In this document: one piece after another, positions 2,909 to 9,526 of the stretch
Layout of the letters: the number at the start of each line of letters is the position of its first letter
Position numbering within the stretch: the first letter of the stretch is position 1
DNA from: Comamonas antarctica
GTDB lineage: Bacteria > Pseudomonadota > Gammaproteobacteria > Burkholderiales > Burkholderiaceae_C
NCBI RefSeq assembly: GCF_013363755.1
Contig: NZ_CP054840.1
Location: 1,605,501 to 1,669,500, forward strand
Length of the DNA: 64,000 bases
Direction of reading: 5' to 3'
Made by a program: the position numbers and the translations under genes
The notes under the pieces: generated by a model
Database searches by the model: none
What the model saw: the letters and a program-made list of their open reading frames with translations, nothing else
Told to the model about the DNA's origin: nothing

Positions 2909-3096
2909 TTCAATCCTTCTTCTTGGTGCAGAGACTGAAGTCTCGGCGCATGGCGCAGGGGTTGGCTGTAGGACGAGGGTCAGCAAGCACCGCTGTAATT
3001 TCTTAAATGCCGTGACCTCCCAAGCACACGGCGGCACCCGCGAAGGCAATACCGTTGCAACCCACCCGTCCACCGGGGCTGCGTTAAGATAGCGCT

Positions 3097-3174
3097 TCGC
3101 TCCGGGGTGCACGCCAGTGCTGAGATCCATACCCGAGAACTTGAACCGGGTCATTCCGGCGGAAGAAGAGCTTG
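3097..3174 (+). promoter_or_regulatory. TPP riboswitch (THI element)
   Basis: The conserved blocks occur in order: GGGGTGC (3104-3110), GCTGAGA (3119-3125), ACCCG (3131-3135), GAACTTGA (3137-3144, the counterpart of GAACCTGA), and a CCGG-GTCATT-CCGG arm followed by CGGAAGAAGAGC that closes helix P1 with GCTC near 3099. This is the thiamine pyrophosphate aptamer. It lies about 80 nt before the LuxE-like gene and is expected to switch the operon off when TPP is plentiful. Confidence 0.9.
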
Positions 3175-3216
3175 CGTCTCGACGTGGCTGCGCCTTGCGC
3201 GCGCCCGGGCGAGGGG

Positions 3217-3247
3217 CCTTCGGAGCATCACGTCCCGCTCTTGAAGG
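3217..3247 (+). promoter_or_regulatory. Candidate ribosome-site-sequestering helix of the riboswitch
   Basis: CCTTCGG (3217-3223) can pair with TTGAAGG (3241-3247), five Watson-Crick and two G-U pairs, which would bury the GAAGGA ribosome site of the ATG at 3254. No T-rich terminator is seen between the aptamer and the gene, so translational control is more likely than transcription termination. Confidence 0.4.
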
Positions 3248-3253
3248 AATTCC

Positions 3254-4336
3254 ATGGACAAGGCCGCCTCGCTGGTCGCAGACCTGCTTGCATTCATCGC
3301 GCTCGATGGCTGCACCGATGAACAGTTCGACGCGCTGGCGCTGCAGCTGTTTGCCTACCAGTACGAATCCAATCTTCCTTTCCGCAGCTTCTGCCAGCGC
3401 CGCGGCGCGACGCTGCGCAACGTGAAGACCTGGAGCGACATTCCCGCCGTGCCCATCGATGCGTTCAAGGCCATGGAACTGCGCAGCGCGCCGCCGTCGC
3501 CGGCCGAGCGGGTGTTCATGACCAGCGGCACCACGGGCCGCACCACGCGCGGGCGCCACTTCCATCCGGCACTTGAGGTGTACGACCTGTCGATGACGCG
3601 CAATTTCGCGCAGCGCTTCATGCACGGCGAGGCGCGCCTGCCCATGGGCATCCTGTTTCCCGACGAGCAGGCGATGCCCAACTCGTCGCTGGCGCATTAC
3701 CTGGCACTGGCCAAGTCCGCGTTCGGCAGCGCGGACAGCCGCTATTTCCTCACGCCCGAGGGCCTGGACATGCCCGGCCTGTGCGCGGCCCTGGAAGCAT
3801 CTGAACAAAGCGGCCAGCCCTATGCGCTGCTGGGCGCGAGTTTCAGCCTGGTGCATGTGATGGACGCACTGCGCGCCCAGGGCCGCAGCTTCCGGCTGCC
3901 CGCGGGCAGCCGCATCCTCGACACGGGCGGCTACAAGGGCCAGTCGCGCGAGTTGCCGCTCGAGCAGTTCTATGCCGATCTGTCGCAGTTGCTGGGCGTG
4001 CCGCATTCGCATTGCATCAACATGTACGGCATGACCGAGCTGAGCACCCAGTTCTATGACGATGGCAATGCCACGCTGCCGTCGGTCAAGTCGGGGCCGC
4101 ACTGGATACGTTCGCGCCTGGTCGAGCCGGTCACGGGACGCAGCGTCGCGCCCGGCGAGCGCGGCATCCTGGTGCACTGCGACCTGGCCAACTACAACGC
4201 GGTGACCACCATCCTGACCGAGGATGTGGGCCTGTGGGCCGAGGGCGGCTTCCTGCTGCTGGGGCGCGCCGAGGGCGCGGCGGCCAAGGGCTGTTCGCTG
4301 GCAGTGGATGAATTTGTCAAGGCTTCGGCCGCATGA
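3254..4336 (+). CDS. LuxE-like acyl-protein synthetase / acyl-activating enzyme
   Basis: A 360-residue member of the LuxE family, which adenylates a carboxylic acid with ATP and passes the acyl group to a LuxC-type reductase. The ATP-binding SGTTG motif of the ANL superfamily is at residues 91-95, followed by TTRGRHFH; a later MYGMTELSTQFYD segment is the second adenylate-binding motif. GAAGGA 5-6 nt before ATG 3254 gives the start. It is the first gene behind the TPP riboswitch and overlaps the LuxC-like gene by 4 nt. In light-emitting bacteria the partner set includes LuxD and LuxAB, all absent here. The acid activated is unknown; the control element suggests a thiamine-related carboxylate. 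Confidence 0.85.
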   Translation: MDKAASLVADLLAFIALDGCTDEQFDALALQLFAYQYESNLPFRSFCQRRGATLRNVKTWSDIPAVPIDAFKAMELRSAPPSPAERVFMTSGTTGRTTRGRHFHPALEVYDLSMTRNFAQRFMHGEARLPMGILFPDEQAMPNSSLAHYLALAKSAFGSADSRYFLTPEGLDMPGLCAALEASEQSGQPYALLGASFSLVHVMDALRAQGRSFRLPAGSRILDTGGYKGQSRELPLEQFYADLSQLLGVPHSHCINMYGMTELSTQFYDDGNATLPSVKSGPHWIRSRLVEPVTGRSVAPGERGILVHCDLANYNAVTTILTEDVGLWAEGGFLLLGRAEGAAAKGCSLAVDEFVKASAA

Positions 4337-5805
4337 GGCTGGAGCGCATCAAGGCCGGGTATCTGCCGGGGCTCGAAGACGGGGCGGTGCAGTGGCACGT
4401 GCTGCCGTTCGCGCACGAGCGTGGGCGGCTCGAGGTGGCCGTGCCGGTGCTCACGGCTGCGCAGATGCAGGCGCTCGCCGACCGCGTGCGCGCGGCCGCG
4501 CACCGGAATCTGCGCGCGATGCCGGTGGCCGAGATCATTGCCGCGATCGACCGCGCCATCATGCGGCTGCTGGACCGTGACGACCCGTACCGGCGCCAGG
4601 CCGAAACCTGGCTGCCCGTGGTCAGCGGCTACGACGCCGACATGGTGCGGCTGGGCCTGACGGGATTCTTCAAGACCTTCCGCGCGGCGCAGCTGCGGCG
4701 CTTCGTGGCCGAGGATTTTGCCAATCCAGCCGTGCTTGACGGTTTCGAGCCCGCGCCCAAGGGCGGCGCGGTCCGGGCCTTCGGGCCCGACCTGCTGATG
4801 CACAGCTGGGCCGGCAACGTGCCCGCGCTGTCGCTGTGGAGCCTGGTCTGCGGGCTGCTGGTCAAGGCGCCCGCCATTGGCAAGCTGGCCAGCGCCGAGC
4901 CGCTGTTCGCGGGCTGGTTTGCCCAGCTGCTGGCCGAGGTGCATCCGCCGCTGGCCGAATGCCTGGCCGTGGTCTGGTGGAGCGGCGCGGGCGGATCGAA
5001 CGGTGCGGGCGCCAAGGGCGCGCAGGTGCTGCTCGCACAGGCCGATACGGTGCTGGCGTATGGCGGCAACGAGACCCTGGACGCGCTGCGCCGGCGCCTG
5101 CCCGTGACCACGCGCTTCCTGCCGCATGGGCACAAGCTGGGCTTTGGCATGGTGAGTGCGCAGGCGCTCGATGCGCTCAAGGCGCCGGCCGTGGCGCGGC
5201 TCGCCGCCTGGGACGTGATGCGTTATGACCAGCAGGGCTGCTATTCGCCGCATGTGTTCTATGTCGAGCGCGGCGCTCCCGTGGCGCCGCGCGCGTTTGC
5301 CGACCATCTTGCGGCCGAGCTGGCGAATCTGCAGCGGCGCTTCGCGCGCCGGCCGCTGGCGCTGGAGGAGGGCGCGGCGGTGGCCAGGTGGCAGCAGACC
5401 GCCGAGTGGGGCGGCGGTGCCGACGATCTGCTGATCGGACCGGCCGATGCAGCCTGGAGCGTGGCGTACTGCGACAAGCTGGCGCCTTTGGCGCCCACCG
5501 CGCTGTACCGCAGCATTGCGGTCGTGGCGGTCGAACGCCTCGATGATGTGGTGCCCGTGGTGGCGGCGCAGCGTGCGTTCCTGCAGACCGCGGGCGTGGC
5601 CGCCGGCCCCGAGGAGTTGTACCGGCTGGCCGGCCTGCTGGGCGCAGCGGGCGTCACGCGCATCAGCGCCATTGGATCGATGAGCATGCCCGAAGCCGGC
5701 TGGCACCATGACGGCCGCTTCAATCTGCTCGATCTGGTGCGCATGGCCGAGATCGAAGCATCGGCCGAAGCCGCGGCGCAGCCGTTTGCCGGCTATGCGG
5801 ACTGA
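4333..5805 (+). CDS. LuxC-like acyl-CoA/acyl-protein reductase
   Basis: A 490-residue protein of the LuxC family, which reduces an enzyme-bound acyl thioester to an aldehyde with NAD(P)H. The probable nucleophile is Cys 303 in YDQQGCYSPHVFY, the usual LuxC context; the cofactor region around residues 155-190 reads HSWAGNVPALSLWSLVCG and then KLASAEP. Its ATGA start overlaps the LuxE-like stop, implying translational coupling and a stoichiometric complex. Both LuxE and LuxC homologues being present, without luciferase, means the aldehyde itself or its reduction product is the goal. The SDR at the operon end is the natural next enzyme. Confidence 0.85.
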   Translation: MRLERIKAGYLPGLEDGAVQWHVLPFAHERGRLEVAVPVLTAAQMQALADRVRAAAHRNLRAMPVAEIIAAIDRAIMRLLDRDDPYRRQAETWLPVVSGYDADMVRLGLTGFFKTFRAAQLRRFVAEDFANPAVLDGFEPAPKGGAVRAFGPDLLMHSWAGNVPALSLWSLVCGLLVKAPAIGKLASAEPLFAGWFAQLLAEVHPPLAECLAVVWWSGAGGSNGAGAKGAQVLLAQADTVLAYGGNETLDALRRRLPVTTRFLPHGHKLGFGMVSAQALDALKAPAVARLAAWDVMRYDQQGCYSPHVFYVERGAPVAPRAFADHLAAELANLQRRFARRPLALEEGAAVARWQQTAEWGGGADDLLIGPADAAWSVAYCDKLAPLAPTALYRSIAVVAVERLDDVVPVVAAQRAFLQTAGVAAGPEELYRLAGLLGAAGVTRISAIGSMSMPEAGWHHDGRFNLLDLVRMAEIEASAEAAAQPFAGYAD

Positions 5806-5815
5806 CGGGCCGGGT

Positions 5816-6562
5816 ATGGCATTTCTCGCTATCGAGCAGGTGCGCTTCACCTATCCCGGCCGCAAGCCCGTGGTCGACGGCGTCGACTGGCGCATGCTGG
5901 CGGGCGAATTCCACTGCCTGCTGGGGCGCAGCGGCTGCGGCAAGACCACGCTGTTGAAGCTGGCCGCAGGGCTGTTGCGGCCGCAGTCCGGGCGCATCCT
6001 GCTGCGCGGCGGCGAGCTGGCATCGCCCGGGCCGCAGCTCGGATTCATGTTCCAGGCGCCGACGCTGCTGGAGTGGCTGAGTGCGCTGGACAACGTGCTG
6101 CTGCCGGTATCGCTGCAGCGCCGGCCCACGACGCAAGACCGGCAGCGCGCGCTGCAGCTGCTGGCGCAACTGGGACTTGAGGACCATGCGCCACACCATC
6201 CACGCCAGCTCTCCGGGGGGCAGCAAAGCCGCGTCGCGCTGGCCCGGGCGCTGATGCTCGAGCCGCCGCTGCTGCTGTTGGACGAGCCCTTTGCGGCGCT
6301 CGACGCGATCACGCGAGCCGAGCTGCAGGACGATCTGCTGCGTACCTGCCGCGCGCGCGGCACGACGGTGCTGTTCGTCACGCATGACATCAACGAGGCG
6401 GTCTACCTCGGCGACCGCATCGCACTGATGCAGCACGGGCGCATCGTCGACGATATTGCCGTCGCGCTGCCCGCGCCGCGCAGCCAGGCCATGCGCCACG
6501 GCGCGGCCTTCAATGAATACTGCGCGCGCGTGCGCGCTGCGATGGACCGGAGCGGCGCATGA
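5816..6562 (+). CDS. ABC transporter ATP-binding protein (SsuB/TauB/ThiZ type)
   Basis: A 248-residue nucleotide-binding subunit. With the start at 5816, Walker A is GRSGCGKTT (residues 37-45); the ABC signature LSGGQQSRVALARAL, Walker B LLLLDEP and the switch VTHD follow. It is closest to ATPases of the nitrate/sulfonate/taurine/HMP-precursor importers. ATG 5795 is an alternative start that would overlap the LuxC-like stop. Its own stop overlaps the permease start (ATGA). It powers import by the permease and binding protein encoded next. Confidence 0.9.
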   Translation: MAFLAIEQVRFTYPGRKPVVDGVDWRMLAGEFHCLLGRSGCGKTTLLKLAAGLLRPQSGRILLRGGELASPGPQLGFMFQAPTLLEWLSALDNVLLPVSLQRRPTTQDRQRALQLLAQLGLEDHAPHHPRQLSGGQQSRVALARALMLEPPLLLLDEPFAALDAITRAELQDDLLRTCRARGTTVLFVTHDINEAVYLGDRIALMQHGRIVDDIAVALPAPRSQAMRHGAAFNEYCARVRAAMDRSGA

Positions 6563-7335
6563 GTCCCTCGGCATTCCAGGTTCGCCTGCTTTCCGCGGCG
6601 CTTTTGCTCGCGTTGCTGGGCCTGTGGGAACTCGTGGTGCGCAGCGCGGGTTTGTCGGCGCTGGTTTTGCCCGCGCCTTCGGCCGTGGCCATGTCGCTGT
6701 GGTCGGGCTTGGCCTCGGGCTATTTCTGGCCGCACCTGGCGGCGACGCTGCAGGCGCTGCTGCTCGGGTTCGCGGCGGGCAGTGTGGTGGGGCTGCTGGC
6801 CGGCATGGCGCTGGCCGAATCACCCCTGCTCGAGCGCGTGCTCAAGCCCTATGTGGTGGTGAGCCAGGTCGTGCCCAAGCTGGCGCTGGCGCCGCTGTTC
6901 GTGCTCTGGTTCGGCTTCGGCTTGCTGCCGACGGTGCTGATCACGGCGCTGATCTGCTTTTTCCCGCTGATGGAAAACACGCTGACGGGCCTGCGCCAGG
7001 CCGATGTCCAGCGGCTGCAGCTGTTTCGGATGCTGGGCGCGACGCGAATGCAGACGCTGCTGCGGCTGAAGCTGCCCACGGCCCTGCCGGCCATTCTTGC
7101 AGGCCTGCGCGTAGCGCTGGTGCTGGCACTGGTGGGCGTGGTGGTGGCCGAGTTCATGGGCGCGAGCCGCGGCCTGGGTGCGGTGGTCATTGCCGCGCAG
7201 GGAATGATGGATACCAGCTTGATGTTCGCGGCGCTGGTGCTGATCGCCGCCATCGGCCTGCTTTTGTACCAGGGCTGCCTGCTGCTCGAACGCCGGCTGC
7301 TGCGCGCCCACGCCATTTCCAACGACCCCGCTTGA
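6559..7335 (+). CDS. ABC transporter permease (SsuC/TauC/ThiX type)
   Basis: A 258-residue inner-membrane permease with about six helices, beginning with a long hydrophobic segment at residues 8-30. The EAA-type cytoplasmic loop is visible around FRMLGATRMQTLLRLKLPTA, followed by LPAILAGLRVALVLALVG. Family members import sulfonates, nitrate or thiamine precursors. It overlaps the ATPase by 4 nt and is followed after 14 nt by the binding protein. Confidence 0.9.
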   Translation: MSPSAFQVRLLSAALLLALLGLWELVVRSAGLSALVLPAPSAVAMSLWSGLASGYFWPHLAATLQALLLGFAAGSVVGLLAGMALAESPLLERVLKPYVVVSQVVPKLALAPLFVLWFGFGLLPTVLITALICFFPLMENTLTGLRQADVQRLQLFRMLGATRMQTLLRLKLPTALPAILAGLRVALVLALVGVVVAEFMGASRGLGAVVIAAQGMMDTSLMFAALVLIAAIGLLLYQGCLLLERRLLRAHAISNDPA

Positions 7336-7349
7336 TTGCGCTACACGCC

Positions 7350-8363
7350 ATGCATACATCCCTGCCGCCTCTTTTCCTTTCGCGCCGCCGCCTGCTGGGC
7401 GCGGGTCTTGCCGGCCTGGCGCTTGCGGGAAATTCCGCCACCGCCCAGGGCCTGGGCAAGGTCCGCCTGGCCGGCTGGAGCAAGCCGATCAGCGAGATCA
7501 CCAACCTGCTGGCCGAACCCGACAAGGGTTTCTTCAAGGCGCGCGGCGTCGAACTGGTCTACCTGCCGGGTGCGGGTGGCGGCGACGCGATCCGCAACAC
7601 GCTCAGCGGCCAGGCCGATGTGGCGTTCACCGATCCCGGCTCGTTCTTCATGGCGCTGGACAAGGGCGAGAAGCTGGTGGCGATCTACGACATCTACCCG
7701 CAGAACGTGTTCAACGTGGTCTCGCTCAAGACCTCGGGCATCCGCAAGCCGGCCGACCTCAAGGGCAAGAAGATCGGTGTCTACAGCCTGTCCAGCGGCA
7801 CGCGCCAGAACCTGCTGGTCATGCTGCACCAGGCGGGCCTCAAGGAGTCGGATGTGCAGATCGTGGTCACCGGCCTGCTGAACTTCGCGCCGCTGATGCA
7901 GGGCCAGGTCGATGCCACGGCGGCGACCGACACCGGGCTGGCCGTGGGCCTGCGCAAGGGCATTGGCGACGTGAACGTCATGCCGGTGCGCGAGCACCTG
8001 AACATGTCCAGCGACCTGTTCGTGGTGCGCGAGGAAGTGTTGCGCCAGAAGAAGGACCTGCTCAAGGCCTTCCTTCAGGGCTACCGCGACAGCGCGGCAT
8101 GGATGATCGCCCACCCCGAAGAGGCCGCGCAGCTGGCGGTCAAGCACGCGATCGACGGCACGCACCGCGACATCAACCTCGATGTGATCCGGCTGCGCAA
8201 TGCGTCCTCGCTGCCCACGGGGCCGGGCGCTGCCTCGCGGCTGGGCAGCTTCGACCTCGCGGCGCTGCAAAAGGGCGCCGATGCGTATCGGGCGCTGGGA
8301 CTGGTGCAGCGGCAGATCAAGGTGGCGGACGTGGTCGACACCAGCCTGCTGCCGGGAGCCTGA
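7350..8363 (+). CDS. NMT1/THI5-like ABC substrate-binding protein (ThiY-like)
   Basis: A 337-residue periplasmic binding protein. The N-terminus LSRRRLLGAGLAGLALAG is a twin-arginine type signal cleaved near ATAQG. The mature part has the NMT1/THI5-like fold signature: KPISEITNLLAEPDKGFF, then a GGGDAIRNTLSGQADVAF loop. This family includes ThiY, which binds the pyrimidine precursor of thiamine, but also sulfonate, taurine and nitrate binders. The TPP riboswitch upstream is what points to a thiamine-related ligand; the pocket residues cannot be judged by eye. Confidence 0.85.
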   Translation: MHTSLPPLFLSRRRLLGAGLAGLALAGNSATAQGLGKVRLAGWSKPISEITNLLAEPDKGFFKARGVELVYLPGAGGGDAIRNTLSGQADVAFTDPGSFFMALDKGEKLVAIYDIYPQNVFNVVSLKTSGIRKPADLKGKKIGVYSLSSGTRQNLLVMLHQAGLKESDVQIVVTGLLNFAPLMQGQVDATAATDTGLAVGLRKGIGDVNVMPVREHLNMSSDLFVVREEVLRQKKDLLKAFLQGYRDSAAWMIAHPEEAAQLAVKHAIDGTHRDINLDVIRLRNASSLPTGPGAASRLGSFDLAALQKGADAYRALGLVQRQIKVADVVDTSLLPGA

Positions 8364-8364
8364 G

Positions 8365-9147
8365 ATGGATGCGTCTGCCATGGGCCTGCGCGGCAAGGTG
8401 GTGCTGGTCACGGGAGCGAGCCGGGGCATCGGTGCGGCCATTGCCGTGGCGTTCGCGCGACAGGGGGCGACGGTGGCCGTCAACCACCTGTCCAACGATG
8501 CGGCCGCGGCGCAGACGGTCGCGGCCTGCGTGGCTGCGGGCGGCGATGCCTGGGCCGCCAAGGCCGACGTCGGCGACCGGTCCGCGGTGCAGGCCATGGT
8601 GGACGGCATCGTGCGCGAGGCCGGAACCATCGACATCGTGGTCAACAACGCCTTCAAGCCCTTTGCATTCGACCCCGAGCGCCGGCGCCGTTTCGAGGAC
8701 CTGGAGTGGAGCGACTACCAGGCGCAGTTCGACGGTGCCGTGGGCGCGGCCTACAACGTGTGCCATGCGGCGCTGCCGCAAATGCGCCGGCGCGCGCGCG
8801 GCAGCATCGTCAACATCGCCAGCAATCTGGTCGAGCATCCGGTCGTGCCGTACCACGACTACACCACGGCCAAGGCCTCGCTGGTGGCTTTCAGCCGCAA
8901 CCTTGCCAGCGAACTCGGGCCGGTGGGCATCCGCGTCAACTGCGTGGCGCCAGGGCTGGTCTATCCCACCCAGGGCAGCCTGGGTACGAAGGAGTCGTTC
9001 CGTGAGGCGCTCATGGCGGCCACGCCCTTGCGGCGGCTGGCGCGCCCTGAGGATGTCGCAGGGCCGGTCCTGTTCCTGGCATCGGAGCTCAGCGGTTTCA
9101 TGACGGGGCAGGTGCTGCTCGTGGATGGCGGATTGGTGATGCGCTGA
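8365..9147 (+). CDS. Short-chain dehydrogenase/reductase (FabG-like)
   Basis: A 260-residue classical SDR: cofactor motif TGASRGIG near residue 17, NNA strand, NIASN with the catalytic Ser, and the YTTAK catalytic pair. The C-terminus ends SGFMTGQVLLVDGG as is usual. It starts one base after the binding-protein stop and is the last gene of the TPP operon. In context it is the best candidate to reduce the aldehyde made by the LuxE/LuxC pair to an alcohol, but oxidation or another carbonyl substrate cannot be excluded. Confidence 0.9.
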   Translation: MDASAMGLRGKVVLVTGASRGIGAAIAVAFARQGATVAVNHLSNDAAAAQTVAACVAAGGDAWAAKADVGDRSAVQAMVDGIVREAGTIDIVVNNAFKPFAFDPERRRRFEDLEWSDYQAQFDGAVGAAYNVCHAALPQMRRRARGSIVNIASNLVEHPVVPYHDYTTAKASLVAFSRNLASELGPVGIRVNCVAPGLVYPTQGSLGTKESFREALMAATPLRRLARPEDVAGPVLFLASELSGFMTGQVLLVDGGLVMR

Positions 9148-9304: not shown

Positions 9305-9484
9305 ATGAACACCGATCAAGTCAAGGGTACCCTCAAGGACGCAGCCGGCAAGGTGCAGCAAAAGGCTGGCGAGGTGGTCAACAGCCCCGAGCAGCAAGCC
9401 AAGGGCGTTGCCAAGCAGGTCGAGGGCAAGACCCAGAAGGCCGTGGGCGACGTGAAGGAAGCCGCGAAGGACGCAACGAAGTAA
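9305..9484 (+). CDS. CsbD-family stress protein
   Basis: A 59-residue hydrophilic protein beginning MNTDQVKGTLKDAAGKVQ, rich in Lys, Ala, Glu and Gln, with the KGxxKxxxGKVQxKxG pattern of the CsbD family. CsbD proteins are general-stress proteins of unknown biochemical role. AAAGGAA precedes the start. It is too short for ordinary gene calling but is clear by composition and has its own terminator. Confidence 0.9.
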   Translation: MNTDQVKGTLKDAAGKVQQKAGEVVNSPEQQAKGVAKQVEGKTQKAVGDVKEAAKDATK

Positions 9485-9526
9485 CCGTTGTTCGTGCCGG
9501 TTACCGCTAGGTAACCGGTGAGCACG

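Follow-up and report, generated by a model that had tools for sequence, protein, structure and literature searches.

We analyzed a 64,000-nucleotide (nt) stretch of the Comamonas antarctica genome (contig NZ_CP054840.1, positions 1,605,501 to 1,669,500; hereafter the window), in which six plus-strand genes form an operon behind a riboswitch aptamer for thiamine pyrophosphate (TPP). The aptamer (THI element, positions 3093 to 3184 of the window, plus strand) matched the Rfam model RF00059 with 50.4 bits (E 4.8e-9 in the 451 bases searched and 1.3e-8 over the whole genome). It is followed by genes for a LuxE-like ATP-dependent acyl-protein synthetase (3254 to 4336, 360 aa; PF04443, E 2.6e-20) and a LuxC-like acyl-protein thioester reductase (4333 to 5805, 490 aa; PF05893, 5.7e-73), with C347 and C303 as the respective candidate catalytic cysteines. 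Next come an ABC transporter ATPase (5816 to 6562; PF00005, 5.3e-32), its permease (6559 to 7335; PF00528, 1.1e-28), and an NMT1-family periplasmic binding protein with a ThiY fold (7350 to 8363; PF09084 NMT1, 1.4e-49). The last gene encodes a short-chain dehydrogenase/reductase (SDR; 8365 to 9147; PF13561, 2.2e-58), proposed to convert an aldehyde to an alcohol. The LuxE and LuxC genes overlap by 4 nt, as do the ATPase and permease genes, and the remaining gaps measure 10, 14, and 1 nt. An earlier reading of the letters alone (the sequence-only reading) had described a clear THI element and this closely packed gene set; the Pfam matches agree with it, and the aptamer is kept at the operon heads of relatives.

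The score of the window element lies 4 bits under the Rfam gathering score for RF00059 (54.3), so that the element was absent from a gathering scan and was found by an E-value scan. Many of the orthologous TPP elements score above both the window element and the gathering score, and others also fall just below the latter. We consider the window element to be real because it is conserved across related loci. When the leader (3093 to 3275) was folded freely, it was no more stable than shuffled sequences (z 0.89), and we therefore claim no on/off structure for it; repression of the operon by TPP is predicted regulation. The genome contains two further TPP candidates, one before thiC, in agreement with the ThiC protein search, and one of low score (31.6 bits) preceding a gene that we take to be thiO-like.

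To define relatives of the operon, 84,980 species genomes were scanned with the LuxE protein. This yielded 125 relatives, and the top 80 were retained as loci. All six genes were present in the same order and on the same strand in 74 of these 80 loci; the remaining six are cut off by a contig end within the operon. Thus, the gene set is not a chance arrangement. For the window and 64 of the loci, a pattern for the TPP core gave a match no more than 400 nt upstream of luxE. Fifteen of the 16 loci without the pattern (including L056, L058, L065, and L078) were recovered with the Rfam model, and the last of the 80, L074, has only 55 nt of upstream sequence, which is too short for a call. A TPP element therefore heads the operon in 79 of the 80 loci, and in all 17 genomes scanned with the Rfam model one element mapped to the operon head. 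For six distant LuxE homologues (22 to 27% identity) from a sample of 300 genomes of the window's family (completeness of at least 95%), no TPP match was found within 9 kb per locus, indicating that TPP control goes with this LuxE subfamily and not with LuxE generally.

Genes of thiamine synthesis are frequent neighbors of the operon. Neighboring genes were clustered using codon scoring to choose the reading frames in the GC-rich DNA. The most widely shared neighbor was thiD (16 loci), followed by a protein cluster found at 13 loci (19 proteins, representative L059:156-1115) and by thiE (12 loci). At 13 loci, thiD lies directly before luxE and behind the TPP element (L056, L058, L060, L065, L066, L069, L070, L072, L073, L076, and L078-L080); at L074, L075, and L077, it is located on the opposite strand after the SDR gene. 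The thiE gene is downstream of the SDR gene in all 12 cases, either directly and with a 4-nt overlap (eight loci: L066, L069, L070, L072, L073, L076, L078, and L079) or beyond at least one open reading frame that is thiO/thiG-like by size and place (L060, L074, L077, and L080). At L092 and L093, the operon is followed by a thiO-like gene, thiG, and thiE; in L092, thiD is encoded on the other strand. L066 served to check thiD and thiE against Pfam and NCBIfam, and L092 to check thiG and the thiO-like gene (a DAO family member) against Pfam. We conclude that the operon is real and conserved, is predicted to be TPP-controlled, and is part of thiamine metabolism.

The two Lux-type proteins belong to the same families, and form the same gene pair, as the LuxC-LuxE fatty acid reductase of bioluminescent bacteria (7xc6). 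The only relative of the window LuxE in the Protein Data Bank (PDB) is 7xc6_E, a LuxE, and C347 aligns with its C-terminal KGCSL; the C-terminal cysteine of LuxE is the acyl-accepting residue. The PDB relative of the window LuxC is 7xc6_A. Its DQQAC aligns with DQQGC of the window protein, which contains C303, and the cysteine in DQQxC is the catalytic residue of LuxC. Both cysteines are conserved among the sequences compared, C347 in all seven, and Y166 and K170 of the SDR motif YxxxK are likewise identical in seven sequences. The window proteins are distant from the solved pair (E 4.6e-21 and 1.3e-14) and score below the NCBIfam equivalog cut-offs for the LuxE and LuxC of long-chain fatty acid reduction, NF052244 and NF052251 (68.9 versus 550 and 73.5 versus 750 bits). 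Unlike the bioluminescence genes, the window operon is under predicted TPP control and in a thi gene context. As the sequence-only reading had stated, neither a luciferase nor LuxD is among its six genes, and no luciferase gene was seen inside those related units whose genes were identified.

For the binding protein, the two closest solved folds were 3ix1, a ThiY-type thiamine-pyrimidine binder, and 4nmy, a thiamin binder; sulfonate binders ranked behind them. The protein thus has the fold of a ThiY-type binder, as had been claimed, although the NCBIfam sequence models place SsuA_fam nearest, with a score below its cut-off (106.3 versus 163.5 bits). The predicted ligand is thiamine-related. 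We rejected identity with the THI5 enzyme, because the CCCFC stretch of the THI5 chain, which we take to be the THI5 motif, aligns with an unlike segment in the window protein. Unlike the THI5-type synthases of phosphorylated 4-amino-5-hydroxymethyl-2-methylpyrimidine (HMP), the window protein is encoded in an ABC transporter operon, and its N-terminus resembles a signal peptide by eye.

Outside the window's family, the transporter genes proved to be variable. Sampling 397 genomes of the phylum added two loci: L090 (genome G502, of another class) has the TPP element and all six genes, and L091 (genome G663, of another order of the same class) has the TPP element, luxE, luxC, and the SDR gene only. 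ThiC is present in both genomes. Among 247 genomes of the order of G663, one more locus (L109; noted at 5430-6198) was found; it has all six genes but no detectable TPP element. No further operon was found among 249 genomes of the order of G502. Plasmid records gave 27 matches, of which we opened eight, from two phyla, and all eight have a TPP element at the head of the unit. The co-occurrence of THI elements with these LuxE relatives, which the sequence-only reading had proposed to survey, extends to plasmids, and L109 is the one exception seen among orthologous operons.

The six genes are present on two Azospirillum plasmids and on a plasmid of Priestia megaterium, and two Pantoea plasmids carry luxE-luxC-SDR with no transporter. 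The Priestia operon (L098:8001-13837) has a TPP element of 49.0 bits, under the gathering score; Priestia belongs to the Bacillota, and its LuxE is 57% identical to that of the window, so by sequence the operon looks like a transfer between phyla. Two small lactobacillus plasmids, with the same proteins on both, have the order TPP-NCS2-luxE-luxC-SDR in compact units (L100:1390-6321 and L101:2947-7878), perhaps a mobile vitamin-precursor cassette. A Niallia megaplasmid carries a pair of TPP riboswitches in tandem (85.0 and 72.9 bits) and, behind them, thiW, an NCS2 permease gene, and luxE-luxC-SDR (L099:5778-6074 and 6104-6640), which suggests that NCS2 acts as a thiamine-precursor transporter. 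Across all these units, LuxE-LuxC-SDR is the constant core, and the transporter is a ThiY-like ABC system, an NCS2 permease, or missing.

The sequence-only reading had left open whether the imported compound is a pyrimidine carboxylate or a thiazole acetate. To distinguish between the two halves of thiamine, 50 of the 80 operon genomes, picked by us to span lineages, were analyzed for ThiC (PF01964) and ThiG (PF05690). ThiG was found in all 50, and ThiC in 41. The nine ThiC-less genomes, which carry no completeness figures, comprise six isolates (L048, L069, L070, L073, L079, and L080) and three metagenome-assembled genomes (L075, L076, and L077). On the LuxE tree, the ThiC-less state needs five changes, at least three of them by well supported branches. 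The loss of ThiC with retention of ThiG in some operon genomes indicates that the operon probably supplies the pyrimidine.

The family sample served as background. A LuxE orthologue, defined by at least 58% identity, was present in 31 of the 300 genomes, and ThiC was missing in 83. The operon as such is not associated with ThiC loss in this sample (ThiC missing in 8 of 31 operon genomes versus 75 of 269 others, p 1.0), and thus only the joint pattern of ThiC and ThiG is informative. Among the ThiC-less genomes (80 of the 83 tested), ThiG was present in 8 of 8 with the operon versus 5 of 72 without it (Fisher p 4.4e-8; 3.3e-7 in the worst case for the three untested genomes, and 2e-5 with one entry per genus and state). 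In the ThiC-less members of three genera (g65, g73, and g101), the operon and ThiG are either present together or absent together; g79 includes a single ThiC-less genome with ThiG but no operon. Thus, genomes able to make the thiazole but not the pyrimidine usually have the operon, which was not seen in those able to make neither. Five family genomes (G051, G074, G166, G204, and G282) are ThiC-less with ThiG and without the operon, and of these only G282 has a TenA-family match. Of the 17 ThiC-less genomes that carry the operon, 4 gave a TenA match, which leaves 13 in which we recognized no pyrimidine source besides the operon (routes such as bacterial THI5 and HMP permease were not searched).

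These data clearly favor the pyrimidine over the thiazole. Salvage of a thiazole acid, such as 4-methylthiazole-5-acetate, to hydroxyethylthiazole would be workable with the same enzyme logic and fits the TPP control, and a ThiW-family thiamine-precursor transporter lies within the Niallia unit. But a thiazole supply predicts the opposite ThiC/ThiG pattern from the one observed, in which the operon goes with ThiG in ThiC-less genomes, and the gene placed directly before luxE at 13 loci encodes the pyrimidine kinase ThiD. We therefore rejected the thiazole acid as improbable. The operon very probably supplies the thiamine pyrimidine, and we are confident that it serves the pyrimidine branch of thiamine metabolism.

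Together, the evidence suggests that the operon probably salvages the pyrimidine half of thiamine under repression by TPP, with import followed by reduction of a carboxylate to HMP. The ABC importer with its ThiY-fold binding protein would take up a carboxylated thiamine pyrimidine, most likely 4-amino-2-methylpyrimidine-5-carboxylate or a near relative. LuxE would activate the acid with ATP and hold it as a thioester on C347, LuxC would reduce the thioester to the aldehyde with NAD(P)H via C303, and the SDR would convert the aldehyde to HMP. HMP would then be phosphorylated by ThiD and coupled by ThiE, and plentiful TPP would shut the operon off through the riboswitch. The role in pyrimidine supply is well supported. 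The specific reaction from carboxylate to HMP is the best reading and a likely one, in which the exact acid and the direction of each step are predicted. The broader proposal of the sequence-only reading, namely, that a carboxylated thiamine-related compound is imported and reduced by LuxE-LuxC-SDR under TPP control, has strong support from the conservation, the clustering with thi genes, and the ThiC/ThiG pattern.

Other functions would account for parts of the data. The transporter could import HMP or a neutral analogue, with LuxE, LuxC, and the SDR serving an unrelated process, for example the formation of fatty aldehydes. In favor of this are the uncharged pyrimidine ligand of ThiY and the names in databases. 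Among the matches listed (120 of 2247), those LuxE relatives that are named by their source are mostly called long-chain fatty acid--CoA ligase or LuxE/PaaK family acyltransferase. LuxC is named acyl-CoA reductase and tagged with bioluminescence. But the enzymes stay TPP-controlled in units without a transporter (L091, L095, and L102) and in units with a different one (L099-L101), and the scores far under the equivalog cut-offs, together with the lack of luciferase genes in the identified units, do not fit fatty acid reduction. We consider such a division of the operon unlikely. A ThiC-independent de novo route to HMP from an acid of primary metabolism, with the importer serving something else, would match the 17 ThiC-less genomes with operon and ThiG, of which 13 likewise gave no match for TenA, and the existence of transporter-free versions. 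We give it very little weight: the sole transporter-free genome tested for ThiC (G663) has ThiC, the binding protein of the importer has the fold of thiamine-precursor binders, and in the clusters whose gene maps were read, thi genes are present and the unit contains no additional conserved enzyme. Import of a whole oxidized thiamine (e.g., thiamine acetic acid) and its reduction to thiamine would fit the TPP control and the close structural match to 4nmy, which binds whole thiamin, but is highly improbable, since ThiG, ThiE, and ThiD would then be unneeded. The operon genomes that lack ThiC nevertheless retain ThiG, and in many of them the operon has thiD and thiE clustered with it.

The proposed salvage of a pyrimidine carboxylate differs from the known ThiXYZ and ThiY-YlmB-TenA system of Bacillus. 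There, salvage of formylaminopyrimidine proceeds by the YlmB and TenA steps, a deformylation and an amino-hydrolysis; here, a carboxylic acid would be reduced by LuxE-LuxC-SDR, and the six genes of the window unit belong to other families. TenA was not found in 13 of the 17 ThiC-less operon genomes. In its predicted regulation, the operon is like the TPP regulons surveyed by Sun et al. 2013 (PMC3766115), in which TPP riboswitches control thiamin biosynthesis and precursor transporters. The main text of that survey contains no word beginning with "lux." Among the open-literature papers listed, no title joins LuxE/LuxC with thiamine metabolism, most subscription journals being outside this scope. 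The pathway is likely but not certain to be new.

Two further features flank the operon in the window. The 3' end of a tmRNA gene lies at positions 1 to 58 (RF00023, 53.5 bits), and a small open reading frame 3' of the operon (9306 to 9485) resembles a CsbD-type stress protein by eye.

On balance, we somewhat favor the wider view that bacteria from two phyla possess a dedicated, horizontally moving LuxE-LuxC-SDR route from the pyrimidine carboxylic acid of broken-down thiamine to HMP, that this route has replaced ThiC as the only recognized pyrimidine source in several Burkholderiales lineages, and that the oxidized fragment circulates in nature as a precursor of the vitamin. If true, a reductive branch would be added to vitamin B1 metabolism, and a function would be assigned to a large protein group whose members currently bear the names of fatty-acid ligases and bioluminescence reductases. 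Some presumed pyrimidine auxotrophs without ThiC would then be predicted to grow on an oxidized thiamine breakdown product.

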